Origin: a virus
DNA length: 60,886 nt
IMG/VR virus record: IMGVR_UViG_3300027851_000031
Coordinates: 1 to 60,886 of that record
Direction: 5' to 3' (one strand)
Shown here: positions 8,126 through 60,886 of the stretch, piece after piece
How the letters are laid out: the number at the start of each line of letters is the position of its first letter
How positions within the stretch are numbered: the first letter of the stretch is position 1
Notes under the pieces: generated by a model
The model's database searches: none
What the model was told of the DNA's origin: nothing
What the model saw: only the letters and a program-made list of their open reading frames with translations
Made by a program: the position numbers and the translations under genes

Positions 8126-8140
8126 TTCGTTCTCCTTTGC

Positions 8141-11361: not shown

Positions 11362-12185
11362 AGGAAGCCTCGCAGCATCGGGAACCGCTCCAGGGTGTAG
11401 ATTTCCCCGGTCTTGTTGATGTTCAGCGAAGGGGCCTTGGCCGTGAACGTGGAGCCGTCCCTGTTGAAGGCGAAGGATTCAACCTCCATGACCACGGGCC
11501 CAAACAGCGAAGCGGTCGTGTCGTCAGACCTGTAGGTGTGGTACACAACTTGAGGCTTGAACCCGAAGCCCCCGGATCTGGCCACGCGGTCCAGTTCGGT
11601 CGGCAGGACTTCGCCCAAGTCACCCCAGGAGAAGGTGAAGGATTGATCCAGGTCATCCCGGCTTCCGTTGTTTTCAATCTTCATCGGGTAGTAGTCGAAG
11701 CTGGCCTGACCCCAGGGCGTGAAGTCCCCGGCGGAGGAGCCCTGCGCCAGCACAAACGTGGACCAAGAGCTCACATACACCGTAGCTCGAACCCAATAGC
11801 AACCCTCCGGAACGGTGAAGGTTGCGGGGCTCCCCAGGGGGTTTCCGGTGACAAATTGCTTGTTGGGTCCATAGAAGGACCTCATGTTGTTGTAGCTGGC
11901 AGAGTAGGTCTGGCCCGGTAGAACGGGAATGAACCCCGTGGTGTTGTAGTTGGGGTCCGCCGTCAGCGTTCCCGTATGGCTTATGTAGTAGCCAGCCACG
12001 TTGTCGGACGCGGAGACGTTGAACAGGTTTCGACCGTACTGGCCCAAGCCGTTCACCGTCACCCCGTTCACCGCGTTGCGCACCAGGCGGTAGTCCTTCG
12101 AGAAGCTGGGGTGGCTGATTTGGATCAGTTCCAGCTGGACCACGGAGGACCGGGAGTTGAGGAAGAACTCACTGAAGCGGCTCAT
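11358..12185 (-). CDS. DUF1833-type minor tail protein with an inserted beta domain
   Basis: The first 45 residues (FFLNSRSSVVQLELIQISHPSF and the following strands) and the last 100 (NNGSRDDLDQSFTFSWGDLGEVLP onward) look like the two halves of a DUF1833 tail protein. Between them, about residues 50-165, is an extra beta domain with a VLPGQTYS segment, an FTVPEG strand and a WVRATV strand. The same pattern is duplicated in the fibre protein at 6770-8125. The parent family lies at the distal tail near the tip. The insert suggests an added surface-exposed binding module; family assignment is from pattern only. Confidence 0.7.
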   Translation of the reverse strand: MSRFSEFFLNSRSSVVQLELIQISHPSFSKDYRLVRNAVNGVTVNGLGQYGRNLFNVSASDNVAGYYISHTGTLTADPNYNTTGFIPVLPGQTYSASYNNMRSFYGPNKQFVTGNPLGSPATFTVPEGCYWVRATVYVSSWSTFVLAQGSSAGDFTPWGQASFDYYPMKIENNGSRDDLDQSFTFSWGDLGEVLPTELDRVARSGGFGFKPQVVYHTYRSDDTTASLFGPVVMEVESFAFNRDGSTFTAKAPSLNINKTGEIYTLERFPMLRGFL

Positions 12186-12186
12186 G

Positions 12187-12660
12187 TTACATTGCCTCCG
12201 GGAGGTCCACGTTGACCAGTTGCTCCAGGGCGTTCAGGAACACGGCGGGCTCCGGAGCGTAGTTGCTCCAGATCATCACCACTCCTTCGTCATAGGCGGC
12301 GTCACGCGGGATGGGCTTCACGTCCAGTTCGGCGGACACCACGTACAGATGGCCCCGCTGCTCCCGGAGCATCACGGACCCGGGGACGAAGTAGGCTTGG
12401 TGCTCCGTCAGGGTGGGTTCGTCCAGCGCCAGGTCGATCAGGAACGGAAGGGAGCCGTTGCTGGTTGCGGTCTTGTAGAATGAGCGCATGTACTGGTACT
12501 CATCGCGGTCGAAGGACCACTGACAAGTGACCTTCGAGTTGGCGTTGAGGATGTCCCGGCGGTAGCGGGCGGCACCGCCGTCCAGCTGAATGGCGATGAC
12601 CTCCTTGCCGTCCGTGACCGAGTAGCCCGCGCTGTCGGGCGGGATTTGAAACTTGTCCAT
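12187..12660 (-). CDS. Minor tail protein between tape measure and DUF1833 protein
   Basis: The product has 157 residues and is predicted to be mainly beta with a WSFDRDEYQYMRSFY segment near residue 55, a pattern seen in distal-tail proteins of lambda-like siphophages. It begins where the tape measure ends (shared base, TAATG) and ends two bases before the DUF1833-type gene, matching the position of lambda M/L-type genes. It probably helps assemble the tail tip around the end of the tape measure protein. Confidence 0.7.
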   Translation of the reverse strand: MDKFQIPPDSAGYSVTDGKEVIAIQLDGGAARYRRDILNANSKVTCQWSFDRDEYQYMRSFYKTATSNGSLPFLIDLALDEPTLTEHQAYFVPGSVMLREQRGHLYVVSAELDVKPIPRDAAYDEGVVMIWSNYAPEPAVFLNALEQLVNVDLPEAM

Positions 12661-19969: not shown

Positions 19970-20185
19970 TCAGTTGCTCCCGGTCGCTTGGGCGGCGCGG
20001 GTCTGGTTCAGAACCCGTCCCACGATGATCGCAAGGCCCAGCCACTTCACCCAACCTTCGGGAAGGTAAGCGGCCACCGCCGGGAGGCTTTCCGCCAGGA
20101 CATCCAGAACCACCAGGAGGACGGCCAGCTGAACGCTCAACCACTTCCAGGCGTTCCGCCAGTTGTCAACAAGCACTTGTTTCAT
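19970..20185 (-). CDS. Holin
   Basis: This 71-residue protein has two hydrophobic segments, at about 16-31 (LSVQLAVLLVVLDVLA) and 46-59 (VKWLGLAIIVGRVL), with a positively charged C-terminus. That is the size and topology of a small class II-like phage holin. It starts with an ATGA overlap to the endolysin stop and has AAGGAGTACCCGGC in front, so expression is coupled to the endolysin. It would permeabilise the inner membrane at lysis. Confidence 0.82.
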   Translation of the reverse strand: MKQVLVDNWRNAWKWLSVQLAVLLVVLDVLAESLPAVAAYLPEGWVKWLGLAIIVGRVLNQTRAAQATGSN

Positions 20186-20568
20186 GCCGGGTACTCCTTG
20201 TGAGGCAGTTGGAAGTGCGGGCCGTCCTTGAACTTCCGCCAGTCTCCGCCCCATTCAATCGGGACGCCCAACTCAGCGGCGGCTTGCTTCACGGCGTCCG
20301 CAATCTTGTAGTACAGCGGCCAGTCCCAACGGACGGAGCCGGAGACGTATGCGCCCAGGTCCACCGCGTGCCCCGTGAGGTGACGGCTGTTCATGGTCTG
20401 GGAGGCTCCGGCCTTGACCAGCTGTTCCTGGCGGGACTTCGAGCGGACGCCCTCCAGCACCGCGAAGTCCACGGGCGTGATTTCAATAGCCCGCTTCACG
20501 ACACGCACCAGGTCCGGGTGAACTCCGGTGAGGCGGTCCAGGGACTTCTTGCTCAGGACGTACATCAT
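20182..20568 (-). CDS. Endolysin, M15 L-alanyl-D-glutamate peptidase
   Basis: This 128-residue protein has the M15C/VanY-type zinc-peptidase signature: SRHLTGHAVDLGAYV (His-x6-Asp pattern) near residue 62 and a C-terminal GPHFQLP motif supplying the third ligand. The middle region includes LEGVRSKSRQEQLV. Such enzymes cut the peptide stem of peptidoglycan. There is no signal sequence, so it depends on the holin for export. The start overlaps the spanin stop by four bases; a second ATG follows immediately. Confidence 0.9.
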   Translation of the reverse strand: MMYVLSKKSLDRLTGVHPDLVRVVKRAIEITPVDFAVLEGVRSKSRQEQLVKAGASQTMNSRHLTGHAVDLGAYVSGSVRWDWPLYYKIADAVKQAAAELGVPIEWGGDWRKFKDGPHFQLPHKEYPA

Positions 20569-44781: not shown

Positions 44782-45164
44782 CTACAAATCTCCTCAGTCT
44801 TGGGCTTCCTGGTCCAGCGGGCCAGGCACGCCCGGTACAATTTGTCCTGCTCCACGTGGCCCAGGACCTTCGCGGCCACCGCTCCGTCGAACAGCAACCA
44901 TTCATTCTCGCCAACCTTCAGGAGAAGGAAGGCCCGCCCGCCGGCATGCCGGCGTTGGGTGAGCCAGACCCGTTGCTGTTGGGTGAAGTGATCAATCCGA
45001 AGCGGTCCGCCCCGTGGGGGCCACTGCTCCGCATATTTCAGCTCCACCCAACCCTCGATGTAGTTGACGTCCGGAGTCCCCGGCCCAGCGGGGTTCTCCA
45101 CGCGCACGGGATCAAGGTGCTTGATCACCGGGCGGAGGGCGTCCCACATCGCGGCTTCAGACAC
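44766..45164 (-). CDS. VRR-NUC-type endonuclease
   Basis: The 132-residue protein has the PD-(D/E)XK signature in a small phage Holliday-junction-resolvase-like form: GTPDVNYIEGWVELKYAE (Asp then Glu-x-Lys) and downstream QQQRVWLTQRRHAGGRAFLLLKVG. Such nucleases trim flaps or resolve branched DNA during replication and packaging. The start is a GTG at 45164 inside the deaminase gene end. Confidence 0.83.
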   Translation of the reverse strand: MSEAAMWDALRPVIKHLDPVRVENPAGPGTPDVNYIEGWVELKYAEQWPPRGGPLRIDHFTQQQRVWLTQRRHAGGRAFLLLKVGENEWLLFDGAVAAKVLGHVEQDKLYRACLARWTRKPKTEEICRWLQN

Positions 45165-45621
45165 CCACCCACCTCACCTTGATGTCGAAGCGGCGGGCCA
45201 CTTCGAGTGACTGGTCAATGCGGGCGTTCCACTCGTCAATCCACTGTTGGTCCTTGCCCTCGAACCGGATGGGAGGGAACACGACAGTGGTCACCCCCGC
45301 CTTCGCGGCGGCTTCCATACAGTTCGGACAGCAGGGAAAAGAAGTATAGAGCGTGAACCCGTGCGGCGTCTCCCCTGTCAGGAACTCGATGGCGTTGATT
45401 TCAGCATGTACAACGTGCTGATACTTGTAGGCGCGGTCCGCGTACAACTTCGGGTGATCGTTGTGTCCGGGCGGGAAGCCGTTGAAGCCGGTGGACGCCA
45501 CGGAGTTGTTCGGGCGAACCAGGACGGCTCCCACCTTTGTGGACGGGTCCTTGCTCCAGGTTGCGACCTCCTGGGCCAGGCGGACATAGCGCATGTCCCA
45601 CTTTTCTTGGCGCGTGATCAC
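45157..45621 (-). CDS. dCMP deaminase
   Basis: This protein has 154 residues, with a GTG start at 45621 overlapping the previous stop. It has the zinc-deaminase site: VVHAEINAI (His and catalytic Glu) and SFPCCPNCMEAAAKAG (PCxxC). The N-terminal WDMRYVRLAQEVATWSKDPSTKVGAV is typical of dCMP deaminases. It converts dCMP to dUMP, the substrate for the TS-like enzyme at 49150-50202, and so feeds the proposed hydroxymethyl-dUMP route. Confidence 0.92.
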   Translation of the reverse strand: MITRQEKWDMRYVRLAQEVATWSKDPSTKVGAVLVRPNNSVASTGFNGFPPGHNDHPKLYADRAYKYQHVVHAEINAIEFLTGETPHGFTLYTSFPCCPNCMEAAAKAGVTTVVFPPIRFEGKDQQWIDEWNARIDQSLEVARRFDIKVRWVGV

Positions 45622-45932
45622 AGCAGCCCCTTCTCGTTGGCAATCCACTCCGTGACCGTCAGGGTCACGAACTTCGGACCCTTCACCACGTTGCGGACCT
45701 GGGACTTGGGCATCCAGACCTCCTGCTCACCGCCGTGGTCGATCAGCAGGGCCTTCTCCGTCTCCCGCTTCACTTGGCACTCGATGTCCACCGTGTTTTC
45801 TTGGCGCTCACGCATGTCGTTCTCCTTCGGTTCTCCCCGGACTTCCTCCGGGGTCAAGCGGGTGCACTTTGCGCAGCGTGCGTCCGCGAACAAATACGTG
45901 ACCTGCGCGTCACATTGGTAACAAAATTTCAT
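45618..45932 (-). CDS. Zinc-ribbon protein with C-terminal small beta domain
   Basis: The product is 104 residues from ATG 45932. An N-terminal zinc ribbon (CYQC...CAKC, residues 4-23) is followed by a charged linker and a beta domain (VDIECQVKRETEKALLIDHGGEQEVWMPKSQV) common in small phage proteins next to replication genes. The family has no known activity. It lies between the winged-helix-like gene and the dCMP deaminase, overlapping both. Confidence 0.7.
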   Translation of the reverse strand: MKFCYQCDAQVTYLFADARCAKCTRLTPEEVRGEPKENDMRERQENTVDIECQVKRETEKALLIDHGGEQEVWMPKSQVRNVVKGPKFVTLTVTEWIANEKGLL

Positions 45933-46168: not shown

Positions 46169-48138
46169 CCCTCGAACCCCATGGAATGACCCCAGCTCAC
46201 GCCCATCTCCACATCAACTTTTGAAGGGAGTTCGAGCGGCGTGCAGGTACGCATGATGTGGGCGGCGTGTTCGGCTTCGTCCTTCGACTTCACGCTGAAG
46301 GCGATTTCATCGTGAACCTGGATGATGATGTCCAACCCGGCCTCCGCGCAGGCCACCATCGCCATCTTGGTCTGGTCAGCGGAGGAGCCCTGGATCAGGC
46401 GGTTCAGGCCCTTGTGAGTCCAGTCAAAGTTGCCCTCAGCGTCCTTCGGGAAGCGGCAGCGGCGTCCGGACAACGTGGTGATGTAGCCCACCGCCTTCGC
46501 CCGGGCTTCGCAAGCCTTGGCCAGCTTCTTGATGAAGGGCACGCGGCGGTCGAAGGTGTCCAGGAGGGCTTGCCCTTCCGGCCCAGCGGCTTCCCACCGG
46601 CGGGCTCCCTGCTCCGCCAGTCGGGCTCCTTCTTCGCTGTTTACGTCGAAGGTCTGGCCCCGAGGTCCGCGCACCGCCGTCATCGTCGGCAGGCCCAGCT
46701 TCCGGCACATCTTCGCTCCGCCCATCCCGTAGGACAGGCCCAAGTAGATTTCCTTGGCGTCCTTGCGCTTGATCCCCGCCATGTCCGCCATCATCTGGTG
46801 GTTGTCAGTGTTCGGGTCGTTCCGGTACTTGTCACGGGCCTCAATCGCCTTCTCCCAGGCGTTGTGACCAATCAGATCGCGGGCCAGACACGCATAGTGC
46901 ACCGCCATCCGGGGCTCCTGCTGGGAATAGTCGTTGGACGCCCACTGCTCCCCTTCCTCCGGGAGGTAGATGGCCCGCCACATCGTGGCGAACTCATCGC
47001 GGGCCGGTTGCTGCTGAAGGTTCGGGTGCTCGCAGGACAGTCGCCCATAGGCGGCTCCGGCGGTTCCGTCCGCTTCATCGTCCTTCTGGCGGCGCAGCTG
47101 GTTGAAGGTACAGTGCAGCCTTCCGTTCACCATGTGGTCCCGGACGGATTGCCCGAAGGTCGTGCGCAGCTTGTTCACCTTCCGGGCGCGTTCGAGGGCG
47201 TCCGCCACGGGGTGCTTGATGCTGGCCAGCAGCTCCTTGTCGATGTTGGGCTTGCCTTGGGAGGTCTTTTTCAGCTTGACCCCGATGTGCTCCAGCGCGG
47301 GCGCAATCGTCTCCGGCTTCCAGACATCGCCCACGCGGACGGCGATGCCCGTGAGATGTTTCACCTGCGCCAGGGCTTCCGTCTCCTGCTCCAGTGCCCA
47401 ACGGTCGATCATGTCCAGTCGGTCCAGGTCGATGCGGACGCCCCGGCGGCGCAGCTTCGTCAGGACCGGCAGCAACTTCGACTCCAGGTTGTACACGTCC
47501 CAGAGGTTCTGCTCATCAATCTCCCGCTCCTGGCGGCGCAGGATGTTCAGCGGCAGGCGGGTGTCCTCCTCCGCGTAGGCCCCCACGAAGCGGGCCGGGA
47601 GCATCCACATGTCCTTCTTCGGGTCAATCTTGTAGTCCTGGGCGGCAAGGCGCAGCAGCTCCTCATCCTTGCCGGAGAAGCCCCAACGCTGGGCAATCGA
47701 CTGCATGCTGTAGCTGTCGTACAACTCGCAGATCAGCGGGTCAGCAATCTGGATGTCCCGGAAGAAGCGGGCGGACTTGAATTCAATCCCGTCTCCCGCC
47801 AGGAAGTCCAGGTCATACGGGAGGTTGGCCCCCACGATGTCGCCCTTGAAGACAGCGGCCTGGTCCCGAAGGTAGCGCAGGACGGCTTCCACCGGGAGGT
47901 TGTCCCCGCCGTCATGGCGGATCGGGAGATATGCCCCCGGGCCGTCCTCGATTGCGAAGCTGATGCCGGTGATGTAGCTGTTCGGGCGGCGTCCCGCTCC
48001 CGGTCCCAGCTTGCGCAGGTCCGGGTCCCGGGTTTCGCAGTCCACGGCCACCCGCTTCGCCCCCTCCCAGGAGGGGAGGCTGTCCAGCTTCGGGGGTTGC
48101 CAGTAGCTTTCCGCTACAGTGAACAGGGGCTGCTGCAT
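46165..48138 (-). CDS. Family A DNA polymerase with 3'-5' exonuclease
   Basis: The protein is 657 residues. Residues 1-200 form a 3'-5' exonuclease (Asp33, Glu35 in AVDCETRDPD; later NLPYDLDFL and YAEEDTRLP). The polymerase domain has motif A NDYSQQEPR (Asp403), motif B with Arg458, Lys462, Tyr470, Gly471, and motif C QVHDEI (Asp610, Glu611). There is no 5'-3' exonuclease domain. Position 466, equivalent to Phe762 of E. coli Pol I, is leucine, a variant seen in some phage polymerases. It would replicate the phage genome. Confidence 0.95.
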   Translation of the reverse strand: MQQPLFTVAESYWQPPKLDSLPSWEGAKRVAVDCETRDPDLRKLGPGAGRRPNSYITGISFAIEDGPGAYLPIRHDGGDNLPVEAVLRYLRDQAAVFKGDIVGANLPYDLDFLAGDGIEFKSARFFRDIQIADPLICELYDSYSMQSIAQRWGFSGKDEELLRLAAQDYKIDPKKDMWMLPARFVGAYAEEDTRLPLNILRRQEREIDEQNLWDVYNLESKLLPVLTKLRRRGVRIDLDRLDMIDRWALEQETEALAQVKHLTGIAVRVGDVWKPETIAPALEHIGVKLKKTSQGKPNIDKELLASIKHPVADALERARKVNKLRTTFGQSVRDHMVNGRLHCTFNQLRRQKDDEADGTAGAAYGRLSCEHPNLQQQPARDEFATMWRAIYLPEEGEQWASNDYSQQEPRMAVHYACLARDLIGHNAWEKAIEARDKYRNDPNTDNHQMMADMAGIKRKDAKEIYLGLSYGMGGAKMCRKLGLPTMTAVRGPRGQTFDVNSEEGARLAEQGARRWEAAGPEGQALLDTFDRRVPFIKKLAKACEARAKAVGYITTLSGRRCRFPKDAEGNFDWTHKGLNRLIQGSSADQTKMAMVACAEAGLDIIIQVHDEIAFSVKSKDEAEHAAHIMRTCTPLELPSKVDVEMGVSWGHSMGFEG

Positions 48139-48518
48139 CAGTTCAGCTCCTCGATCATTTCGCGGAGGATTTCGAGGGCGCGGGTCAGCTCCGGGTCCGC
48201 TTCCCAGTAGGTCAAGATGCGCACCACTTCGGCTTCGTTCTCCGTCAGCTCATTCGACTCAACGAAGTCCACCAGGCTGACAACCATCGGAGCCGTCCGG
48301 GGGTGGAGGTAGCCGTTGCGATGGAGGTCCTGGACCTTCTCCACGTAGTGAATCGCCTTCTCCAGGTCCTGGCGCTGTTGGCCCTTCTTCCGGTTCCGGG
48401 TGGCGTACTTCGTGGCGCAGCCTTCGGTGTAGCGGAGCCCGTTCAGCTCCACATAGTCCCAGTGCTGGACCTTCGAGCGGTAGTGCTCACCGCCAACTTG
48501 CTTCTCGTTCACGCTCAT
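48138..48518 (-). CDS. DUF3310-type protein
   Basis: The product has 126 residues. The N-terminal GGEHYRSKVQHWDYVELNGLRYTEGCATKYATRNRKKG and DLEKAIHYVEKV match DUF3310, which recurs in phages near nucleotide metabolism genes. It has been linked to nucleotide kinase or Sak-like names, but its function is not settled. The C-terminal half is helical and acidic. It begins with an ATGA-type overlap to the HD gene and shares one base with the polymerase. Confidence 0.85.
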   Translation of the reverse strand: MSVNEKQVGGEHYRSKVQHWDYVELNGLRYTEGCATKYATRNRKKGQQRQDLEKAIHYVEKVQDLHRNGYLHPRTAPMVVSLVDFVESNELTENEAEVVRILTYWEADPELTRALEILREMIEELN

Positions 48519-49147
48519 TTGGTTTCTCCTTGCAGGTAGGGTTCCACGTCCTCGAAGAAGTCCGAGAGACGCTTGTGGGGGTATTGACGCAGAGCATCAT
48601 AGAGCTGCGCGGCAATCGCGGGCAGGCTACCCTCCAGCTGGTGCTTCTCCGTCACCTTCTCGCATGCGCGGCGCATCGGCGTGACGGCGGCGTTGCCCAG
48701 GGCTTCTTCTTCCCGGCACCACAGCCAGAGTTCGAGGGTGTCCACGGCCTTCAACCAGGCCACTTCGAGGTCCGTCAGTTCCCCGAACAGCCCAAGGCGC
48801 TTCAGCAGCTCCTCCTCCGCCCGCTCATAGGCTTCGCCCAGTTCCGTGTGCGTCCACTTCGCGGGGGCCGGGACATCGCCCAACCAGCGTTCCGCAACGT
48901 CATGCCACTGGACGGCCTTGATCAACTTCAGGGACGGCTTCGGGTGGAGCAGCAGGAGGAGGCTGACAGCCCCGTAGCTGTGTTGGGCGATATTGTATTG
49001 GCCGTGGTGGGGGACAATATGGCAGCGGCGGACGGTCCCGGCTTCCCGGGTAGCGGCCAGGCGCGTCAGGAGCGGGCGCTGAACCCGCTCCCGGGCAGCT
49101 TCCGCTTCCAGCTCCGCGTCACGGATTTTGGATGCTATGCTGCCCAT
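48515..49147 (-). CDS. HD-domain nucleotide phosphohydrolase (YfbR-like)
   Basis: The 210-residue product has the HD signature: HIVPHHGQYNIAQHSYG (first His), WHDVAERWLGDVP (HD pair), and a later VDTLELWLW with an Asp. The length and motif resemble YfbR-type 5'-deoxynucleotidases. Standing between the TS-like and polymerase genes, it may remove dTMP or another competing nucleotide so that modified dUMP derivatives enter DNA. The ATG at 49147 has GGGGAG in front; a GTG two codons earlier is also possible. Confidence 0.78.
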   Translation of the reverse strand: MGSIASKIRDAELEAEAARERVQRPLLTRLAATREAGTVRRCHIVPHHGQYNIAQHSYGAVSLLLLLHPKPSLKLIKAVQWHDVAERWLGDVPAPAKWTHTELGEAYERAEEELLKRLGLFGELTDLEVAWLKAVDTLELWLWCREEEALGNAAVTPMRRACEKVTEKHQLEGSLPAIAAQLYDALRQYPHKRLSDFFEDVEPYLQGETK

Positions 49148-49149
49148 GA

Positions 49150-50202
49150 TCACTCCCCTGTACCGTAGTCCACCCCGTCATCCATCGCACGTGCCTTGCG
49201 GGCTTCGTGCGCGGCGCGGCGGCGCTCAATCCACTCGATTGCGGCCAGCTTCCAATCGGACGCGGCCACGTCCCGGAGGAGGTCCATTGCCCCGTCGAAG
49301 TCCTTGCGCTGATAGGCGGCGTGAGCCCGGGACATCGGGATGGCGACACGGCGGAAGAAGGGGTCACGGAAGCCCAGGGCGTCCGGTTCTTCCATGAACA
49401 TCTTCAGCTCCGCGTCCCATTCATACCGGCCCAGGGTCATCAGCGGGAAGGGCTCCACGGCGGCACTGGCGTAGGGGTCCGGGGTGGGCGCTCCGGTCAG
49501 CGGGTCCGGGGCGTAGTCCGCCAGAGGCGCAACCTTCTCCAGCACGTCCTTGTAGGCGTGGAAGTTGGCGGACACTTGGCGGTAGATGCCCTGCGGGACG
49601 CCCACGGAGCGGGCCACGTACTCGTGGAGGTAGCTGAAGTGGACGGCGTTGGCCCCGTAGGCTCCCCAGATCATGTCGTTGGAGCGGTTCGTCACCATCA
49701 TGTCCAGGCGTCCGTCCGAAGCCACTTGGAACACGGCCTGTAGGTTGCAGGGGAGGTCCTTGCCTTGACGGCCCAGGTCCGCGTCCGTGTCCCACATCGA
49801 CAGGACTTGGCGGCGGTCATCCGGGTTCGCCTTCAGGGCGTCGATGATCTTGGGCAGTTGGTCATCGAAGAAGAACCTGCGCCAGCGGAACCCGTAAGCC
49901 CCGTGGAACGTCACCCCGTCATCCGAGTAGGTGCGCATGCGCTTCACGTAGCGGGCCACGTAGTCCACATCACGGCGTCCCGCCAGCATCCAGAGGCTTT
50001 CGATCAGGTGGAAGAAGGGGTTGCAGTCCCGCTCCGCCCAGAACATCACCCGCTCCGCAGGGCGGAGGTACACCGTGGTCACTGGCTCCGGGAACATCCG
50101 GACGGGACCATTGCGGCTGTCGCGCTCCACCCCTTCGTTGGCCAGCTGATACAGGGCTTCGGGAAGGGCTTGGTGGGCGTTGCGTGCTTTGATGACTTTC
50201 AT
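49150..50202 (-). CDS. Thymidylate synthase-type dUMP hydroxymethylase
   Basis: The protein is 350 residues. TS landmarks are present: GFRWR near 104-108, Arg130-Arg131 in DDRRQVLSMW, the nucleophile Cys152 in DLPCNLQAVFQ, NRSNDMIWGAYGANAVHF (171-189) and ANFHAY. Asn, not His, follows the catalytic cysteine. In hypermodifying phages such TS homologues make 5-hydroxymethyl-dUMP from dUMP with methylene-tetrahydrofolate. Clustering with the kinase, radical SAM and PLP genes supports hydroxymethylase over classical thymidylate synthase, but the sequence alone does not settle it. Start ATG 50202 overlaps the previous stop. Confidence 0.83.
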   Translation of the reverse strand: MKVIKARNAHQALPEALYQLANEGVERDSRNGPVRMFPEPVTTVYLRPAERVMFWAERDCNPFFHLIESLWMLAGRRDVDYVARYVKRMRTYSDDGVTFHGAYGFRWRRFFFDDQLPKIIDALKANPDDRRQVLSMWDTDADLGRQGKDLPCNLQAVFQVASDGRLDMMVTNRSNDMIWGAYGANAVHFSYLHEYVARSVGVPQGIYRQVSANFHAYKDVLEKVAPLADYAPDPLTGAPTPDPYASAAVEPFPLMTLGRYEWDAELKMFMEEPDALGFRDPFFRRVAIPMSRAHAAYQRKDFDGAMDLLRDVAASDWKLAAIEWIERRRAAHEARKARAMDDGVDYGTGE

Positions 50203-50759
50203 TTTGCTTCCTTCTTGGGCAGGCCCAGGCGGGCGTTCAGGTCTTGGACGGGCAGCGCGGGGAGATAGCGGCCCGTGGCGGTTTGTTTGAAGTCCTCAAC
50301 GAAGGGCTCCACCTCCGGCCAGGTCTCAATCAGCTTCTTGAGCGTGGTGACGCTGTCCAGGATCGCCTTGGTGGAGGACTCCGCCTTGCGCTCCTCCTCC
50401 GTCAGCTGGTCATTGGCCTTGCGGTAGGCGTCATGACGGACGGACAGGGGGTGCTTGCTGTCATACACACGGGCGGCGTTCGAGCGGTGCCCATAGGACA
50501 GCAGGCGGTTCTCCCCGAAGTACACGCGGGTGAAGTCTCCCCCGAAGGACACGCGCACGTCATCGTCCATCGGAAGGAACCCGGCGGGCATCGCCTTCAT
50601 CTTGGTCAGGACTTCCTCCGGGTACAGGTCCTTGTACACGGCGTCCCCGAGGGCGTACCACTCAGCCTGCAGGGCCTTCTTCCGCTCCTCGAAGGCGTGA
50701 TTCATGAGACGGCGCACCACCGTCTCCTTCATGTAAGTGTTGATGCGAACAGTTGCCAT
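50199..50759 (-). CDS. Nmad5-like protein of the modification cluster
   Basis: This 186-residue protein begins MATVRINTYMKETVVRRLMNHAF and has a central DDVRVSFGGDFTRVYFGENRLL region. I read it as resembling the nucleotide-modification-associated domain 5 (Nmad5) type proteins that occur with DNA-hypermodification genes. A helical C-terminal part follows. It overlaps the start of the TS-like gene by four bases. Its reaction is unknown; it could be structural or catalytic in the complex. Family identification is tentative. Confidence 0.68.
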   Translation of the reverse strand: MATVRINTYMKETVVRRLMNHAFEERKKALQAEWYALGDAVYKDLYPEEVLTKMKAMPAGFLPMDDDVRVSFGGDFTRVYFGENRLLSYGHRSNAARVYDSKHPLSVRHDAYRKANDQLTEEERKAESSTKAILDSVTTLKKLIETWPEVEPFVEDFKQTATGRYLPALPVQDLNARLGLPKKEAK

Positions 50760-50774
50760 TTCGTTCTCCGTTTC

Positions 50775-51710
50775 TCAGATGGTTGTTGCCTTGCGCCAGT
50801 CATACTTCGTGCGCATCTTCCCTTCGCCCAGGCGCACCCGTTCATACTTGTCGAACTCACACAGGGAGTGCTCCACGTCCATCATCTCGAAGCGGGGACC
50901 CAACGGGCCAAAAGTCTGCATGAATCCCGGATCGTCCACCACACAGAGGTCAAGCCTCAAATCGTACATTTCACGGTTGGTCTGCTCCGGGCGGGGCTTC
51001 GCTTCGAGGTTCCGCCCATACAGGCGATTCAGTCCCCGGATCGCTCCGGGACCGGCGTTGGCCCATGAATAGATGTCCGGGGCGTGACGAAGGTAGCGGG
51101 TGTGGCGGAGGTCCGTCACCACTTCATAGGCCATGAACGGCCCCCAACCGATGTAGCGGGGCTCCTGAAACAACTTCCAGACCTGCTCCAGGGAGGCTTG
51201 GCGCTTGCCTTCGAGGACTTCCACGAATGCGGCGCGGTCCTCCCACAGACGCCCAATCACGATTTCCGCGATGTAGCGGTGCTTGCTCCAGCTGTACCAC
51301 TCCTTGGCGGTGTCGGACTCCGCCCGGATCATGTACGCCCCGGTGTACACCTTGTCCCCGAAGGAAGCCTTGGCGGCAAGAACCTCCGTGACGTTCTCCG
51401 GCGCGAAGTCCTCATGGCTGGGCCAGGCCCCGGGCGCTTCGATGAGCGTGGCCAGGGTATCGGGCCAGTTGATGTAGCGGGCCAGCGCCAGCATCAGCCA
51501 AAGATGTTCGTGGCCCGCGTAGGGCTTCCGGATGTTCTGGTCAACCCAGATCGTGACCGTGTCCAGTTCGCGGAAGATGTTGCAGAACCGCCCATCACGG
51601 AGGACCGGGTCAGTGGTCCAGGGTCCGGGCTTCCCGGCCTTGCGGTCCAGGTAGATGTCGTGCCGGGCCTTCATGAAGGCGGCGATGTCGTTGAGACGCG
51701 GGGTGCTCAT
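50775..51710 (-). CDS. 5-hmdU DNA kinase helical-domain / thymine pyrophosphorylase-like protein
   Basis: The product is 311 residues from ATG 51710, preceded by GAGGAACCC. The N-terminus FMKARHDIYLDRKAGKPGPWTTDPVL and RFCNIFRELDTVTIWV matches proteins found with hydroxymethyluracil-DNA kinases and annotated as HMUDK helical domain, nucleotide-kinase domain, or alpha-glutamyl/putrescinyl thymine pyrophosphorylase. The fold resembles a helical DNA glycosylase (about 60-270). It probably recognises hmU or its phosphate in DNA, either helping the kinase or attaching a nucleophile. It begins just after the kinase gene. Confidence 0.78.
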   Translation of the reverse strand: MSTPRLNDIAAFMKARHDIYLDRKAGKPGPWTTDPVLRDGRFCNIFRELDTVTIWVDQNIRKPYAGHEHLWLMLALARYINWPDTLATLIEAPGAWPSHEDFAPENVTEVLAAKASFGDKVYTGAYMIRAESDTAKEWYSWSKHRYIAEIVIGRLWEDRAAFVEVLEGKRQASLEQVWKLFQEPRYIGWGPFMAYEVVTDLRHTRYLRHAPDIYSWANAGPGAIRGLNRLYGRNLEAKPRPEQTNREMYDLRLDLCVVDDPGFMQTFGPLGPRFEMMDVEHSLCEFDKYERVRLGEGKMRTKYDWRKATTI

Positions 51711-51721
51711 GTCTGGGTTCC

Positions 51722-52276
51722 TCAGATGACGGCCAGGAGGGCGGCGCGGGCGTCCTGCCAGGGCAGGTCCAGCACGGTTTCCTTGTCGGCCAGGGCCTTG
51801 TCGCGGACCCGGGCGATGGTGCGGTGCTTGTCGGCCACCTGGTCCTCCTTGATCGGCTTCCCGCCGTTGCGAACCTGGATGCGCTCCAGGCAGGTCTGGA
51901 GCGGGGTGTCCAGGAAGGCCCAGATCATCCCGCCGTTCGCCTTCGACCACTCCTGCCACGGACCGTAGATGGTGCTGACCACCACGCCCTCGAACAGGAC
52001 GGCCTTCACCCCCGGGTCCTTGCCCACGAACTCGATGACGGCCTTGGCGGCGGCTTGGGTCTTGATACGGTCCAGGCCAGCGGTGGTAGAACCGGCGGCG
52101 GCGGGCGTGTAGTCACCGATGATGGCGATGCCGCCCGGGCAGTAGGTGACGGGGATGGGCTTGTGAAGGTCGCCCATGTTCGCGTTCGAGACGCGGCACA
52201 GCGAATCGGTTGCGAGGCTGCGCAGCAGGGTAGTCTTGCCGGAGCCGTTACAGCCCCGCACGTTGATGTACTTCAT
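51722..52276 (-). CDS. P-loop 5-hydroxymethyluracil DNA kinase
   Basis: This 184-residue protein opens with a Walker A motif, GCNGSGKTT (residues 8-16), and has a Walker-B-like VLFEGVVVS and a lid-like segment around ERIQVRNGGKPIKED. It is shaped like small nucleoside kinases. In phages with hypermodified thymine, such a kinase phosphorylates 5-hydroxymethyldeoxyuridine already in DNA. The surrounding genes (transferase, radical SAM, PLP enzyme) make that role more likely than a generic dNMP kinase. Confidence 0.82.
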   Translation of the reverse strand: MKYINVRGCNGSGKTTLLRSLATDSLCRVSNANMGDLHKPIPVTYCPGGIAIIGDYTPAAAGSTTAGLDRIKTQAAAKAVIEFVGKDPGVKAVLFEGVVVSTIYGPWQEWSKANGGMIWAFLDTPLQTCLERIQVRNGGKPIKEDQVADKHRTIARVRDKALADKETVLDLPWQDARAALLAVI

Positions 52277-52281
52277 CTTGA

Positions 52282-52325
52282 TTCTCCATTTCAGTTGAGG
52301 GTGGGCGGAGCCGGAGCCCCGCCCG
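52282..52325 (-). terminator. Hairpin between radical SAM and kinase genes
   Basis: GGGCGG and CCGCCC form a stem around GGCTCCGGCT just after the radical SAM stop. There is no U tract; it may tune the amount of message for the downstream kinase and later genes. Confidence 0.4.
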
Positions 52326-52329
52326 GGGG

Positions 52330-53796
52330 TTATTGCTGGACCACCACCTTGATGGCTTGCAGCTTCTTCTTGATACGGTCGGGCTGTTCCTCATCGGGTC
52401 CCGCCACGTACTTGAAGTCAGGGGCGCGAAGGGCGCGGGCGGCTCCGAACACTTCCGAACCACAACGGCCTTTCAGCTTGTCTTCCGGCTTCGCATCCTC
52501 CGGGGCGCAGTACAGACAACCGGACGGCGGGCAGGCTCCCACCTCCTCGAAGTTGTCGGACAAGTCCTTGCGCGTGAACATCGGGACCTTCTGGCCGTGG
52601 CACTGGTCAGCGGTCGTGAATTGACGGCCCACACTCTGCCAACCACCACCGCCTTCGCCCTTCGCGTACTCATAGCACGTGGCGTAGGTCATCCCGAGTT
52701 CGGTGGCCCACTTCTGGTACAGTGTGTGGGCTTCGATGCGGTAAGATTGGACGATTGTGCGCTGGGCTCCGGCCTGGTTCTCCGTGAACAGGGCCTGGAA
52801 CTTCCCGGCCCGCTCCGCTCCGAACCGCTTGTGAAGGCGCTCCACCATCGCGGGTGCCCAGCTGTACCCGGCTTCCACGAACTTGACGATGACGTGGTTG
52901 TTGCCGACTTCGGCCAGGCGCTCAAACAAGCGGCGGATGTCCTCGTGCGGGGTAATCCCGGGCACCACCGGGTTCACCTGAATGGAGGTGTAGATGCCGT
53001 GGCGGCGCAGCTCCCGGATTTCGTCCAGGTGGGCTTGAAGGGAGATAGCCCCGGGGGACAGCTTGTGCCAATCCGCATCGTTGCCCGTGTTGAGGGACTT
53101 CTGGGCATAGCTGTAGCGGTTGCGCTTCAGGAGGTCGAAGGCCCAATCAGGGTAGTGAAGGCGGGAGAGGAAGAACACGGGAAGGCCCACGCGGTCGAAC
53201 TCCTCCGCCCCGCGTTGCGTGTTGTGGTACACCTCCTCAATCGGCAGGAACGGGTCCGTGAAGCTGGAGAAGTAACCGGCGGCGGAAGTATGGACCTTGG
53301 ACAGCTGGGCGCGGACCTGGTCACCGTAGTTCATCGGCACGCTGATGAGGCCAGAGCCCCGATAACCCCGGAACCCGCTGTTGACGTAGCAGAAGGCACA
53401 ACCCACGGTGCAGTAGCCCCCATATGGCTCCGTCAGGACGGCTTCCGTGAAGCAAGGACGCGGACGGCTCCCCTGCTTGTCGTTGTGCTTGTCCTGGTAC
53501 CAACCCTGCAGCGGCTTCGCGTTCGGGATGCGGATATGGGGCACGTAGGTCTTGTCATTGAAGCCCAGGTACACCTTCACCTCCTTCTTGGACTCATCGG
53601 GGGCGTTGCGGACCATGCCCACCTTCGCCATGCGGAACTTCGCACGCATGCCGGTCAGCGGGTCATCCTCCTCCTCGATTGGGCCCAGGAACTCCCGTTG
53701 GTTCGGGTCCGGGCGCATGAAGAACTTGTAAGCCTCCTGGGCTTCTTCTCCGGTTGTCTGTTCGAGCCACTGGTTGTGGTCGTGTTCACTTTGCAT
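52330..53796 (-). CDS. Radical SAM enzyme of the DNA-hypermodification pathway
   Basis: The protein is 488 residues. Cys129, Cys133 and Cys136 in GGYCTVGCAFCYVNS form the CxxxCxxC 4Fe-4S motif; the HYPDWAF and GAISLQAHLDEIREL segments belong to the partial TIM barrel. A second cysteine group near the C-terminus (CHGQ, CPPSGCLYC, RCGSE) could hold an auxiliary cluster. The M6 pathway uses a radical SAM isomerase that moves the bond to the thymine from the amine to the alpha carbon of glycine. Same gene neighbours here suggest the same reaction. It has its own promoter (P8). Confidence 0.88.
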   Translation of the reverse strand: MQSEHDHNQWLEQTTGEEAQEAYKFFMRPDPNQREFLGPIEEEDDPLTGMRAKFRMAKVGMVRNAPDESKKEVKVYLGFNDKTYVPHIRIPNAKPLQGWYQDKHNDKQGSRPRPCFTEAVLTEPYGGYCTVGCAFCYVNSGFRGYRGSGLISVPMNYGDQVRAQLSKVHTSAAGYFSSFTDPFLPIEEVYHNTQRGAEEFDRVGLPVFFLSRLHYPDWAFDLLKRNRYSYAQKSLNTGNDADWHKLSPGAISLQAHLDEIRELRRHGIYTSIQVNPVVPGITPHEDIRRLFERLAEVGNNHVIVKFVEAGYSWAPAMVERLHKRFGAERAGKFQALFTENQAGAQRTIVQSYRIEAHTLYQKWATELGMTYATCYEYAKGEGGGGWQSVGRQFTTADQCHGQKVPMFTRKDLSDNFEEVGACPPSGCLYCAPEDAKPEDKLKGRCGSEVFGAARALRAPDFKYVAGPDEEQPDRIKKKLQAIKVVVQQ

Positions 53797-53822
53797 TTCG
53801 ATTCTCCTGAAGTAGCTGAAAA

Positions 53823-53852
53823 AGTATAGAGGGGTGGTGTGAAGAAGTCTAG
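53823..53852 (-). promoter_or_regulatory. Phage-type promoter for the radical SAM gene (P8)
   Basis: On the minus strand TAGACT, 17 bases, TATACT. The -35 box overlaps the end of the NUMOD3-like gene. It provides separate transcription of the radical SAM gene and the genes after it. Confidence 0.55.
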
Positions 53853-54022
53853 TTGGAACAAGTGTTTTCCGGAGGTTCGATGCCCCGGGCGCGGTCCCAC
53901 CGGGCCTTCGCGGCTTCTGACATCTTCCGGCGGTGCTCCTCCGTGAACACCCGGCCCTTCATCCGCTCCGAGTGCGCACGCTTCTGCTCCTCCGTGCGCT
54001 GGCGTCCCTTCGGATAGCCCAT
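53849..54022 (-). CDS. NUMOD3-like mini-protein inside the modification cluster
   Basis: This 57-residue gene runs from ATG 54022 to TAG 53849. Two copies of a short basic motif are visible, TEEQKRAHSERMKGR and TEEHRRKMSEAAKARW, the form of NUMOD3 DNA-binding helices that decorate homing endonucleases. No HNH or GIY-YIG nuclease domain is attached. It could be a remnant of a homing endonuclease or a free DNA-binding peptide. Its insertion between the PLP and radical SAM genes is unusual. Confidence 0.78.
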   Translation of the reverse strand: MGYPKGRQRTEEQKRAHSERMKGRVFTEEHRRKMSEAAKARWDRARGIEPPENTCSN

Positions 54023-54025
54023 GGC

Positions 54026-54865
54026 TCAGTCTCCGATGTTCCAGAACACGATGGGCTTGCCCGCCAGCGGTTCGAGGTTCTCCGGCTTCTGGAGCCAGTT
54101 CCACGCCTTCTGGTCATAGTAGGGGTTGCACGGGAACGGAACGGAGACGCTGCTGGGCGCGGCGTCCGCGTAGTTGTAGCCCTCATCCACGAAGCGGACA
54201 CGCTCCGTCAGCTGAATCCCGGCGGCACGTTCGATGTAGGCGCGGGTGGAGTCCTGACTGCGGCTGTAGCCCATGTTCAGAATGACGTCATACCCGTCCA
54301 GGATACCGGCCTGCTTGAAGCCCAGGAGGACCCCGGCGGCAACCGTCCCGGAGCTGATGGACAGAATCAGGGTGCCTTCGCCCGGGAGGTCCGGAGCGGT
54401 GCGCAGGGCTTCCGCAGCGTTCTCCGTGATCGACTCCGGCAGCTTCAGGGCGTTGGGCATCAAGTACCCGTTCGCATAGCCGTCCATCAGCCGCTTGCGC
54501 GCTCCGTGGTACAGCACGGCGGAGCGGCCCGCCGGAAGGTCCACCAGGTCCGCCCCCAGTTGGCGGGCACGTTGCTGCTGGATGCGCGGGGCGTCCGCGT
54601 TCCCGTCCTTCTTGTAGCGGGGCCAGAAGTCCACGCACTTGCGTCCGAGTTGGTTGCAGACGTAGGCCACCGCGTGTCCGGCCTTCGAGTGATAGGTGTC
54701 CAGGACCCCGATGACTTGTTCAGGGCGGTTCTTGATGTGGGCCACCACGCCCCGTATCTTGCTGAAGGACGGACCCGGCAGCGGGGCGCAAAGGTCCTCA
54801 CGCTTGACGATGACGGGGACGCCCCGGAGGTTGTGGACTTCGAGCGGGGTGTTGTTGACTATCAT
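54026..54865 (-). CDS. PLP-dependent enzyme, fold type II
   Basis: The protein is 279 residues from ATG 54865, in an ATGA overlap. The PLP lysine is probably Lys36 in [20 protein letters not shown] near residue 160 is the phosphate-binding loop, and [17 protein letters not shown] and the C-terminal region follow the tryptophan-synthase-beta/ACC-deaminase fold. In M6-type phages a PLP enzyme decarboxylates the amino acid attached to thymine, giving an aminoethyl group. A serine or threonine lyase activity is the alternative. Confidence 0.83.
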
Positions 54866-55740
54866 GATTGCTCCTTGGGCATGTGGTGGAGGAAGGCGCG
54901 GGCGGCGGGGCACGAAGCGGCCCAGGGTTCGAGTCCGGTGTTGATCTCCCGGGTGTCGTTCCAGAGGGGGTAGTGTCCATTCATGTGGGATTTCCACTTG
55001 CACAGGACCGTCTCCACCTCCTGGATGTTCACCGGACGGTCGGACAGGGGCGGGGCTTCGAGGTCCGCGAAGTGCCCAATCAGGTACTGCGCCACCCCGT
55101 TCAGGATGACCTCCCGCTTGGGCTTCGCGTTCTCCGGGTACTTGTGGCCCTCCCGGAGCTGCCACAGCATCATCGCGGCCTTCTCCGGGTCCTTGAACAT
55201 GAACACGGCGGCGTTGTCGAAGTCAACCGGGACCTCCATCACGCGGTCCATCATGTCCGCAATCTTGAAGCCAATCCACGGTCCGAAGCCGTTGTGCTCC
55301 TGGGCGCGGTTCGAGACGGTCCGGAAGGGCAGGCGCTCCTCCTCCGTTGCGCGGGCTCCCACGTATAGCACGAAGTTCTCCGGGCGCTCCGCGTACCGCT
55401 TCTGGAGGGACGATACAGCGTTGACCGCAATCGCTGCGCGGAAGTGGCGGCGCTCATGTCCGCGTGGCCAGCGTCCTCCCACGGGGGTTTCCTCCGCGTT
55501 TTCTGCTGCGACCATCATCCAGTGCCAGAAGTCATTGCCCTCCTTCTCACTGAGGAAGGACGCAACGGCGGCGTTGTAGTAACACCAGTATGCGACCATC
55601 CAGCGGCAGAGTTGGGGGATGGAGTAGTCACCGGCCTTCTCCGCCCGGACTAGGGCGGTGTAGATCGGGTCAAGGTCCCCAGAGGTGATCAGGTGTCGCC
55701 CAAAGGACTCGATGTCCAGGCGGGGGTAGTTTCGGCTCAT
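54862..55740 (-). CDS. Amino acid:DNA transferase-like protein (ADDT/aGPT-Pplase type)
   Basis: The protein is 292 residues. The sequence [12 protein letters not shown], then [32 protein letters not shown] and [17 protein letters not shown] resembles putative amino acid:DNA transferases linked with thymine hypermodification. It is proposed to displace the phosphate or pyrophosphate of activated 5-hydroxymethyluracil in DNA with an amino acid such as glycine. It leads the cluster and overlaps the PLP gene start. The name is from recognised sequence features and order; the amino acid cannot be read from sequence. Confidence 0.78.
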
Positions 55741-55756
55741 TGTACAAGTCTCAGTG

Positions 55757-55779
55757 TAGGCCCCGGCTTCCCGGGGCGT
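55757..55779 (-). terminator. GC hairpin before the modification cluster
   Basis: CCCCGG and CCGGGG form a compact hairpin between the DUF3489-like gene and the transferase gene. No U tract is seen, so attenuation rather than full termination is likely. Confidence 0.4.
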
Positions 55780-55786
55780 GTTGTTG

Positions 55787-56452
55787 TCAGACGGCCAGCT
55801 TGGCTTGGCGGGCGTCCGCCTTCGCCTTGCCCTTCAGCGGGGTGTGGGCGGGGATGCCCTTGGCGCACTCCGGAAGGACGATGTGGAATCGCTCCGTGCC
55901 GTCCGCGTCGAAGGAGGAGTGAACACCGTAGCCCTTGAGCTTCATGTCCCAACCGAAGCCGGAGCGGACGGTGGCCTCAGTCCAAGGCTTGTTGCCGCCG
56001 GACAAGGCATCAATCAGTTCGGCCATGGTGGAGCCGTTCTTGCGGGACAGCATGTCCAGGAGGAGGGCTTGCTTGGAACCTTCGCGGCAGGCAATCGGCT
56101 CGAAGCCGGGAGGGGTCAGGTTGGTGCCACGGGGCTTGGCGTTCTTTTTCACAGGGGTTTCCTTCTTCGAGGAAGCCACCAGGCCATTCACCCAGCTGGA
56201 GAGGACGCTGGGAGCGGTCACCACTTCTGCGACTACTTCAACAACTTCCGCTGCGGGGGCTTCGACCGGGAGCTGACCGAGCAGCTTCCAGGTACGGCTG
56301 ACGGCGGACTTCTTGTCAGCGAAGCGGGTCACCGGCTTGCCGGTTTTCAGGGCTTCGGAGACAGCGTTGAACAAGGCAACCAGCGCGGGGCCGGACAGGC
56401 TGTTCAGGATGGCTTCGGTGTAGCTGACGTTGTTGAAAGTGATCGTGTTCAT
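55787..56452 (-). CDS. DUF3489-like winged-helix protein
   Basis: The product is 221 residues from ATG 56452. The N-terminal region ([20 protein letters not shown], then [20 protein letters not shown]) is a pattern shared with plasmid and phage proteins. The C-terminal region, about 130-200, resembles DUF3489 ([28 protein letters not shown] and [20 protein letters not shown]), with a winged-helix look. It may bind DNA or regulate transcription. It has a strong upstream promoter (56503-56532) and an RBS-like GGAG. Confidence 0.75.
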
Positions 56453-56502
56453 GATGAGCTCCATTTCTGAGGGTTGCGGTTCGTTGTTCGACCGTGAGAA
56501 GA

Positions 56503-56593: not shown

Positions 56594-58420
56594 TTACTCA
56601 CACTCACGGCGTCCGGTGGCCGGGTCGATGCGACACTGGCTGGCCGGTTCCTCCGTCTGGGCTTCTCCGGCGTCACCCGTCTCCCCTTCGTCCTTGGCGA
56701 CAAGAATGCCGCTGCGCTTCCCGCCCAAGCGGAAGGTCGTGCAGCCCTTCGCTCCGCCCTCCCAGGCGCTCACGTACACGTTCTTGAAGTCCTCCCAGGA
56801 GATGTCCGAGGGCACGTTGCAGGTCTTGCTGACGGCGCTGTCCACACGCTGGGCGGCGGTCGTCAGGGCGGCAACGTGCTCCTGGACGGTAACGCGGTCG
56901 CAGGTCTTGCCCTTCACCCCGAAGGCGCGGGCACCGTAGTCGTGAACCGTCTCCACGCGGGGGCCGGTGAACTCCACCACGGTACGGTCGAAGCTGTAGG
57001 CGAACACAGGCTCAATGCCGGAGGAGACGTTGTCAGCGCAGAGGCTGATGGTGCCGGTCGGGGCGATGGAGGTCAGGTGAGAGTTGCGGATGCCGTGGCG
57101 GGCGATAGCGTCCCGAACGTCCTCACGCAGGGTCTTGACGAACTCACCCTGCAGGTACTTCTCCCGGTCGAACATAGGGAAGGAGCCCTTGTCACGGGCG
57201 ATGTGTGCGCTGGCCAGGTAGGTTTCGTCACGCAGAGTGTCGAGCACTTGGGCCTCGAAGCGGAGGAAGTCCGGGGAACCGTACAGGAAGCCCAGGGCCT
57301 CGCCCGCGTTGGCCAGGCCGGTAATGCCCAGGCCCATGCGGCGCTTGTCGTGGGCTTCCTTCTTCTGCTGCGGGAGCGGATAGATGGCGCGGTCAACCAC
57401 GTTGTCCATGGCGCGAACCACGGTGGGGATGTCCTCCTTGTACTGGTCCCAGTCGAAGGCGAACTTGCCGGAGCCGTCCCGGACGATGTAGCGGACCAGG
57501 TTGAAGGAGCCCAGGAGGCAGGCACCGTAGGGCGGGAGGGGTTGCTCACCGCAGGGGTTCGTGGCGGCAATCGTCTCGCAGTACCACAAATTGTTCATGC
57601 GGTTGATCGCGTCGATGAACAGCACCCCGGGTTCCGCCCAATCCCAGGTTCCGCGCATGATCGACTCCCACAGGGCGCGGGCGTCCACTTCACGGTACAC
57701 GCGGCCCTCGAAGCGCAGCGGGAAGGGCTTGCCAGCGGCAACGGCTTCCATGAACTCATCGGTGATCGCCACGGAGACGTTGAAGCCGGTCAGGCGCAGG
57801 GTATTCTGCAGGGAGAAGATCAGTTGTTGCTTCTCCGGGCCGTCCGGCAGCGCGGCCACCATATCCCAGAGGGGCTGAACGTCCCGGGCCGGTTGCTTCG
57901 CGTGAATGAACTCCTCGATGTCCGGGTGATCCACGCGCAGGACCCCCATCTGCGCTCCCCGGCGGTGGCCGGAGGAGGCCACGCACTTGCAGATCGCGTC
58001 GAAGATGTGCATGAAGCTGACCGGGCCGGAGGAGTGGGACTGGAGCTTGCGGATCAGATCGCCACGCGGACGGAGCGTGCTGAAGTCATAGCCAATCCCT
58101 CCGCCCATACGCATCGTGGCGGCGGCTTCGGCGGCGCGTTCCATGATGGAGCCGTCCCCGTCCACAAAGCTGTCATTGATCTTGCCACTGACATAGCAGT
58201 TGTACGGGGTCACTTGACGGGTGGAGCCCATCGCGGATTGGATGCGGCCCGCCGGGAGGAAGCGCATGCCCAGAAGGGCGTCCCGGAAGTCCGCGAAGTG
58301 GCGGTCATCGTCCTTCAGGGCGGCGGCAATCCGGTTCATCGCTTCGCGGAAGGACTCGCCCTCACCACGGTACTTCTGTGCGTGAAGTTCTTGGGAATAT
58401 GGCACTTGTGGACCATTCAT
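56594..58420 (-). CDS. Class II (B12-dependent) ribonucleotide reductase
   Basis: The protein is 608 residues from ATG 58420, which has AGGAGAAAACCAAG upstream. It has the 10-stranded-barrel motifs of monomeric or dimeric class II enzymes: FLPAGRIQSAMGS, TPYNCYVSGKI, RRGAQMGVLRVDHPDIEEFI, NPCGEQPLPPYGACLLGSFNL with the active-site Cys and Glu, and IAPTGTISLCA. It ends in a short C-terminal tail with CRIDPATGRRECE, providing the redox cysteines. It makes deoxyribonucleotides and depends on host cobalamin. Confidence 0.92.
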   Translation of the reverse strand: MNGPQVPYSQELHAQKYRGEGESFREAMNRIAAALKDDDRHFADFRDALLGMRFLPAGRIQSAMGSTRQVTPYNCYVSGKINDSFVDGDGSIMERAAEAAATMRMGGGIGYDFSTLRPRGDLIRKLQSHSSGPVSFMHIFDAICKCVASSGHRRGAQMGVLRVDHPDIEEFIHAKQPARDVQPLWDMVAALPDGPEKQQLIFSLQNTLRLTGFNVSVAITDEFMEAVAAGKPFPLRFEGRVYREVDARALWESIMRGTWDWAEPGVLFIDAINRMNNLWYCETIAATNPCGEQPLPPYGACLLGSFNLVRYIVRDGSGKFAFDWDQYKEDIPTVVRAMDNVVDRAIYPLPQQKKEAHDKRRMGLGITGLANAGEALGFLYGSPDFLRFEAQVLDTLRDETYLASAHIARDKGSFPMFDREKYLQGEFVKTLREDVRDAIARHGIRNSHLTSIAPTGTISLCADNVSSGIEPVFAYSFDRTVVEFTGPRVETVHDYGARAFGVKGKTCDRVTVQEHVAALTTAAQRVDSAVSKTCNVPSDISWEDFKNVYVSAWEGGAKGCTTFRLGGKRSGILVAKDEGETGDAGEAQTEEPASQCRIDPATGRRECE

Positions 58421-58490
58421 CTTGGTTTTCTCCTGAAGGTTGAGTTGCTGAAAAGGGGTAGTAATCATATCTGGACTCCTGGGTGTTGGG

Positions 58491-60747: not shown

Positions 60748-60877
60748 TCAGACCTCGATCTTGGCCACGCGTTGGCGGTGGACACCGAACAGGTCCAGGG
60801 GGAGTTCTTCACCGTCCCGCAGCTTCTCCCGGACGAAAGCGGCCAGGGTGGAGGGGTGGACGGCGGCGCTGTCCTCC
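60748..60877 (-). CDS. C-terminal end of the junction-spanning gene
   Basis: The last codons and stop (TGA at 60748-60750) of the gene that begins at 545 on the left side are found here. The overlap of 126 bases lets the gene be joined across the contig ends. This is a duplicate copy of the 3' end, not a second gene. Confidence 0.85.
60752..60877. repeat. Terminal direct repeat, right copy
   Basis: Identical to 1-126. After it the sequence diverges for nine bases (60878-60886), and those bases are nearly the reverse complement of a segment about 25 bases earlier, so the final bases may be a foldback artefact rather than genome. Confidence 0.93.
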
Positions 60878-60886
60878 CCTCCACCC

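Follow-up and report, generated by a model that had tools for sequence, protein, structure and literature searches.

The DNA of phage M6 contains 5-(2-aminoethyl)deoxyuridine (5-NedU), and approximately 48% of the Type II enzymes tested either fail to cut this DNA or cut it very partially; SacI and FspI do not cut it (PMC6449724). Secondary papers disagree on the extent of thymine replacement in M6, which is given as about half (PMC9476957) or roughly 30% (PMC11946847). Phage SN1, which is 97% identical to M6 and carries the same cassette, also resists some Type II enzymes (PMC9476957). Phages carrying an M6-type cassette are common, and M6 itself is already characterised. Here we describe a thymidine-hypermodification cassette at positions 49150-55740 of IMGVR_UViG_3300027851_000031, which is an entire IMG/VR virus record of 60,886 bases from an uncultivated phage (hereafter the window). 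The cassette is a fresh, clear example of the known M6 system and not a new system.

A sequence-only reading of this DNA had predicted eight open reading frames (ORFs) with an M6-like gene order. An ORF check recovered all eight on the minus strand at the predicted coordinates, and every motif that had been singled out was found: CTVGCAFC (residues 129-136) in the radical S-adenosylmethionine (SAM) enzyme, the Walker A sequence GCNGSGKT in the kinase, SFSKIRG in the fold-type II pyridoxal phosphate (PLP) enzyme, and Cys152 and an adjacent Arg pair near residue 130 in the thymidylate synthase (TS) homologue. The resemblance in order proved to be literal orthology. In M6, the annotated order is gp51 (transferase), gp52 (PLP enzyme), gp53 (radical SAM enzyme), gp54 (kinase), gp55, gp56 (Nmad5), gp57, gp58 (TS homologue) and gp59 (HD protein). 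Protein identity to M6 was 85.9% for the transferase, 73.7% for the PLP enzyme, 77.7% for the radical SAM enzyme, 83.6% for the kinase, 74.8% for the HMUDK_hel protein and 78.4% for the TS homologue, with similar values for the neighbouring DNA polymerase (86.0%) and ribonucleotide reductase (87.3%); Nmad5 was the outlier (38.0%). Because each protein is 74-86% identical and in M6 order, Nmad5 excepted, the match between the two cassettes is not a matter of chance. Judged by sequence, the core genes are syntenic orthologues of M6 gp51-gp58, occupying the same locus and not just following a similar order. Profile searches bore out the predicted gene identities: the matches to ADDT, PALP, HMUDK_HMUD1, HMUDK_hel, Nmad5 and Thymidylat_synt passed the Pfam curated cut-offs, those to Radical_SAM and NUMOD3 narrowly missed them, and the radical SAM protein matched PHROG 9252 at 2e-278.

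By orthology with M6, with which gene identity, motifs, order and conservation agree, each catalytic step can be provisionally assigned following the chemistry that Lee et al. (2018/2022) are said to have set out for the M6 route. The TS homologue would convert dUMP to 5-hydroxymethyl-dUMP, which would then be polymerised into phage DNA, where the P-loop kinase would phosphorylate a subset of the hydroxymethyl groups. The ADDT protein would swap the phosphate for glycine, the radical SAM enzyme would isomerise the resulting glycinyl adduct, giving an amino acid side chain joined by a C-C bond, and the PLP enzyme would decarboxylate this side chain to 5-NedU, the amine of which may hinder host restriction endonucleases. 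Nmad5 and the NUMOD3-like ORF would stand outside the route as passengers or accessories. This product, already named by the sequence-only reading, is strongly supported by the synteny with M6, a solved glycinyltransferase relative, gene co-occurrence across related loci and the absence of Abidjanvirus-type genes, and we consider it highly probable that the pathway is of the M6 type with 5-NedU as its most likely product.

Against the PDB, the transferase matched two solved structures, 25qc (E 4.6e-180) and 8z2m, an entry named Glycinyltransferase (E 4.3e-92), which places it by homology in the glycinyltransferase family with a predicted use of glycine. The PLP gene starts at an ATG (54865) that overlaps the 3' end of the transferase gene; the lysine of its SFSKIRG motif is Lys37 in the translation from base 54868 and Lys36 from the ATG, and the longer string PSFSKIRG is identical in M6. 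A PDB sequence search returned no match for the kinase or the HMUDK_hel protein. The PHROG label of the kinase, 'terminase small subunit', which is also the annotation of M6 gp54, was rejected as an inherited misannotation.

Several points weigh against 5-NedU as the product. With 22-26% divergence from M6 and no match in the PDB sequence search, the radical SAM and PLP proteins offer no basis for comparing substrate pockets with a solved structure, and Nmad5 differs so strongly that a side step or the end product could differ. Divergence on this scale (22-26% for the radical SAM, PLP and HMUDK_hel proteins, 62% for Nmad5), together with the extra genes in other cassettes of the family, such as a TET-associated glycosyltransferase (TAGT) in locus L048, might indicate a close variant in which another amino acid is attached or the route stops early, leaving glycinyl-thymidine, an undecarboxylated intermediate or some other product. 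We regard such a variant as improbable, given the 86% identity of the transferase to M6 gp51 and its strong match to a solved glycinyltransferase, the intact active-site motifs, and a cassette with no extra modification gene and without the Abidjanvirus flavoprotein and acetyltransferase.

The first step depends on the TS homologue, which, in addition to the residues above, carries Asn185. An ordinary thymidylate synthase beside an inactive or decayed cassette would likewise have a TS-family fold and the catalytic Cys, the Arg pair and the Asn. However, it failed every cut-off of the NCBIfam thymidylate synthase models (best 84.4 bits versus 174.55), its best PDB match is a CMP 5-hydroxymethylase, and it is 78% identical to M6 gp58. 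Within this family, an Asn or Asp at one position is tied to a uracil or cytosine substrate, respectively. At this position the CMP hydroxymethylase carries Asp, whereas the phage protein keeps the Asn that aligns with thymidylate synthase, as would suit an enzyme acting on uracil rather than cytosine. Decay is likewise at odds with the cassette, in which every gene is open and the ratio of non-synonymous to synonymous substitution rates (dN/dS) is low for the kinase, radical SAM enzyme and TS homologue (0.06-0.19), indicating that these genes are maintained. An ordinary synthase with a defunct cassette is therefore extremely unlikely, and we retain the hydroxymethylase as the predicted entry point to an M6-type pathway.

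The radical SAM enzyme would carry out the isomerisation. Across 23 aligned relatives, down to 54% identity, all ten of its cysteines are invariant (115, 129, 133, 136, 374, 399, 422, 427, 430 and 445). The three of the CxxxCxxC motif bind the SAM cluster; seven lie outside it, six of them C-terminal, and these six point to one or two auxiliary Fe-S clusters, which would be relevant to the unusual isomerisation. The AlphaFold model has a mean predicted local distance difference test score (pLDDT) of 73.7 with low confidence at 422-433, 439-456 and 461-488, so the clustering of the C-terminal cysteines in three dimensions cannot be assessed from it. Among solved folds, spore photoproduct lyase (E 2e-7), whose target is a thymine lesion in DNA, comes closest to the model. 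The likeness is one of fold, with only 15% identity and no homology above threshold in the PDB sequence search, and the phage enzyme, unlike the lyase, has the six further invariant C-terminal cysteines. The frequent annotation 'DNA repair photolyase', given to this protein by PHROG, was rejected as inherited misannotation. Separately, Pseudomonas phage EKU1 (PV844354.1) encodes two divergent radical SAM homologues, the better with approximately 41% identity to the protein described here.

Table 1 Cassette genes and associated features, with positions in the window
Feature	Coordinates	Strand	Support
ADDT, aGPT-Pplase2, predicted glycine transferase, M6 gp51 orthologue	54862..55740	-	PF18724 1.7e-44
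Fold-type II PLP enzyme, predicted decarboxylase, M6 gp52 orthologue	54026..54865	-	PF00291 (PALP) 1.4e-10
NUMOD3-like ORF, 57 aa	53849..54022	-	PF07460 9e-4, under cut-off
Radical SAM enzyme, predicted glycinyl-thymidine isomerase, M6 gp53 orthologue	52330..53796	-	CTVGCAFC; Radical_SAM 1.3e-5, just under cut-off
P-loop 5-hydroxymethyldeoxyuridine DNA kinase (predicted), M6 gp54 orthologue	51722..52276	-	PF18748 (HMUDK_HMUD1) 3.6e-18
HMUDK_hel / aGPT-Pplase1 protein, M6 gp55 orthologue	50775..51710	-	PF18723 1.4e-54
Nmad5 protein, divergent allele, probably accessory	50199..50759	-	PF18757 1.2e-31
TS-family predicted dUMP hydroxymethylase, M6 gp58 orthologue	49150..50202	-	PF00303 (Thymidylat_synt) 1.9e-21
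HD/YfbR-like nucleotidase, likely nucleotide-pool enzyme, M6 gp59 orthologue	48515..49153	-	PF12917 7.7e-8
dCMP deaminase, possible dUMP supply, M6 gp65 orthologue	45157..45648	-	PF00383 2.3e-18
Ribonucleotide reductase, upstream of cassette, precursor supply	56594..58468	-	87.3% to M6 gp46

We found the radical SAM protein encoded in 47 IMG/VR loci (numbered with the prefix L), 17 of which had enough flanking sequence for co-occurrence to be counted. The transferase and PLP genes were present in all 17, and the kinase, HMUDK_hel, TS homologue and HD protein in 15 each, with the full core set also in 15/17. The M6 order, irrespective of Nmad5, was kept in twelve loci; in two others the transferase gene lay downstream of that for the radical SAM enzyme, and one was more rearranged. 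Only the transferase, PLP and radical SAM genes were seen in the stretches examined of L032, which lies on a 266 kb contig, and L044. Overall, a fixed core (hydroxymethylase, kinase, HMUDK_hel, transferase, radical SAM and PLP enzymes) can be told apart from an exchangeable periphery in this comparison. Some cassettes contained additional genes. In L048, the HMUDK_hel and TS genes are separated by a TAGT gene (12517-13269; PF20691, E 6e-18), which suggests a glycosylated thymidine derivative. In distant cassettes, a family of 208-234 aa with no Pfam or PHROG match occurs near the radical SAM gene (L018:4332-5033, L019:376-1077, L034:8372-8995, and also L040, L044 and L049) and possibly provides an extra tailoring step.

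The sequence-only reading had counted Nmad5 among the members of the cluster; the gene is present, but it looks accessory. Among published phages, Nmad5 falls into one class with 53-55% identity to the protein encoded here (YuA, MP1412, PAE1 and Bordetella phages) and a second with 37-40% (M6, LKO4, SN1 and others), with yuaviruses in both classes although their neighbouring genes are nearly equidistant from those of this phage. The gene was found in 7/17 well-flanked cassettes, six by tblastn and L014 by its match to PHROG 1965. Its slot holds HNH_3 endonuclease genes in L010 and L046 and has no room for a gene in eight loci (L011, L012, L021, L029, L030, L033, L035 and L049). A scan with the alignment as query also recovered Nmad5 relatives from phages without the cassette in the flank examined. 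One of these (L086:5186-7037) has ThyX and a HAD_PNKP phosphatase gene as neighbours, with no M6 cassette nearby, and another lies near a terminase and a DUF4055 gene (L094).

Structure and rates of evolution point the same way. The confident Nmad5 model (pLDDT 86.3) consists of a long helical hairpin and a beta hairpin, with no meaningful match in a PDB fold search; among viral predicted structures, the top matches were other Nmad5 proteins and unnamed or uncharacterised proteins. The few invariant residues (K142, L143, W147, P148 and E149) do not resemble a catalytic set, and a dN/dS of 0.35 was the fastest tested among the cassette enzymes. Taking divergence, patchy presence, replacement, the odd fold and fast evolution together, we judge Nmad5 to be probably an accessory and not a core enzyme. 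That it is an essential pathway enzyme, as its name suggests, might be argued from its syntenic position in many yuaviruses and Bordetella relatives, its listing with the M6-like cassette (PMC9476957) and its place beside ThyX in L086. We find this unlikely for a gene with a helical-hairpin product lacking a solved match that occurs in just 6-7 of 17 well-flanked cassettes, is absent from the cassette of phage Ab18 and is carried by phages with no cassette nearby. In a Dhillonvirus, an nmad5 missense mutation gave escape from the Tmn defence, whereas deletion of nmad5 did not (PMC11846954). Tentatively, and with somewhat less than even confidence, we propose that Nmad5 does not modify bases but is an exchangeable, non-catalytic accessory in thymidine-modified and other phages, which might for instance adjust or protect the modification machinery or act on host sensors, and that its locus and the gap between the PLP and radical SAM genes are recombination slots that swap alleles and homing endonucleases while the core pathway stays fixed. 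The split between core and periphery makes it testable whether Nmad5, which was named for its neighbourhood, has any role in base modification.

The gap between the PLP and radical SAM genes holds the NUMOD3-like ORF, which had been listed with the cassette; it is present, but as a gene at an insertion hot spot and not as a modification gene. HNH endonuclease genes (126-150 aa) occupy the same gap in L006, L010 and L046, the one in L006 ending in a NUMOD3 motif, and from this comparison the ORF sits at a hot spot for HNH-endonuclease insertion. Its only close full-length relative is a 52-aa ORF at the same position in L004. The differences between the two are mostly synonymous (dN/dS 0.16-0.22 over 43-52 codons), indicating that the ORF is probably translated and kept by purifying selection. 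No HNH or GIY-YIG nuclease domain was found in it, the one domain hit being the sub-threshold NUMOD3; its PHROG matches cover just a short stretch of homing endonuclease profiles, and no known phage matched the region in DNA. On the simplest interpretation, the ORF is what remains of a homing endonuclease, a DNA-binding part that now stands alone.

At the level of the genome, the first 126 bases are repeated exactly at 60752, which indicates terminal redundancy and a probably complete genome. The stretch 60752-60886 comprises this exact repeat and then a tail that diverges, probably because of end effects in assembling a circularly permuted genome. Megablast of positions 48000-56500 gave approximately 80% identity to Pseudomonas, Bordetella, Stenotrophomonas and Sphaerotilus phages, M6 (Mesyanzhinovviridae, Rabinowitzvirinae, Yuavirus) among them, and most replication and head genes have collinear M6 counterparts. 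By these comparisons, the phage is a previously undescribed relative of Yuavirus at approximately 20% DNA divergence, and the M6 type of hypermodification would extend to this lineage. No M6 counterpart was found for 3816-12660 on the tail-fibre side, the gene at 20182 or several small genes. The gene at 20182-20568 encodes a short M15 peptidase, a possible endolysin, in place of the larger M6 endolysin. Tail-fibre-side genes without M6 homologues and a swapped endolysin suggest a host other than that of M6.

Finally, several known systems resemble this cassette. Abidjanvirus Ab18, from a sister genus, shares a homologous glycine transferase (52%), kinase, HMUDK_hel protein and hydroxymethylase. 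It lacks Nmad5, and where the present cassette has its radical SAM and PLP genes, Ab18 has genes for a flavoprotein-like protein and an acetyltransferase. The former is annotated as hypothetical and is read as flavoprotein-like from its sequence; neither gene (ORF10 and ORF11) had a significant match in the 60,886-base genome. Bordetella phages CN1, CN2, FP1 and MW2 and Sphaerotilus phage SN1 carry the same cassette including the radical SAM and PLP genes, with radical SAM proteins 74-76% identical to the one described here; in CN1, a gene of 76 aa separates the transferase gene from the PLP gene. The closest relative found was L004 (IMGVR_UViG_3300008448_000080), which matches in the radical SAM enzyme (94%), PLP enzyme (98%), kinase (96%) and TS homologue (90%), carries the same NUMOD3-like ORF and differs more in Nmad5 (73%) and HMUDK_hel (83%). 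As for M6, the core genes are the same, the NUMOD3-like ORF is extra here, and M6 gp50 and gp57 are lacking. What the two phages have in common are the genes, their order and their strand relation to the DNA polymerase, HD protein, ribonucleotide reductase and helicase.

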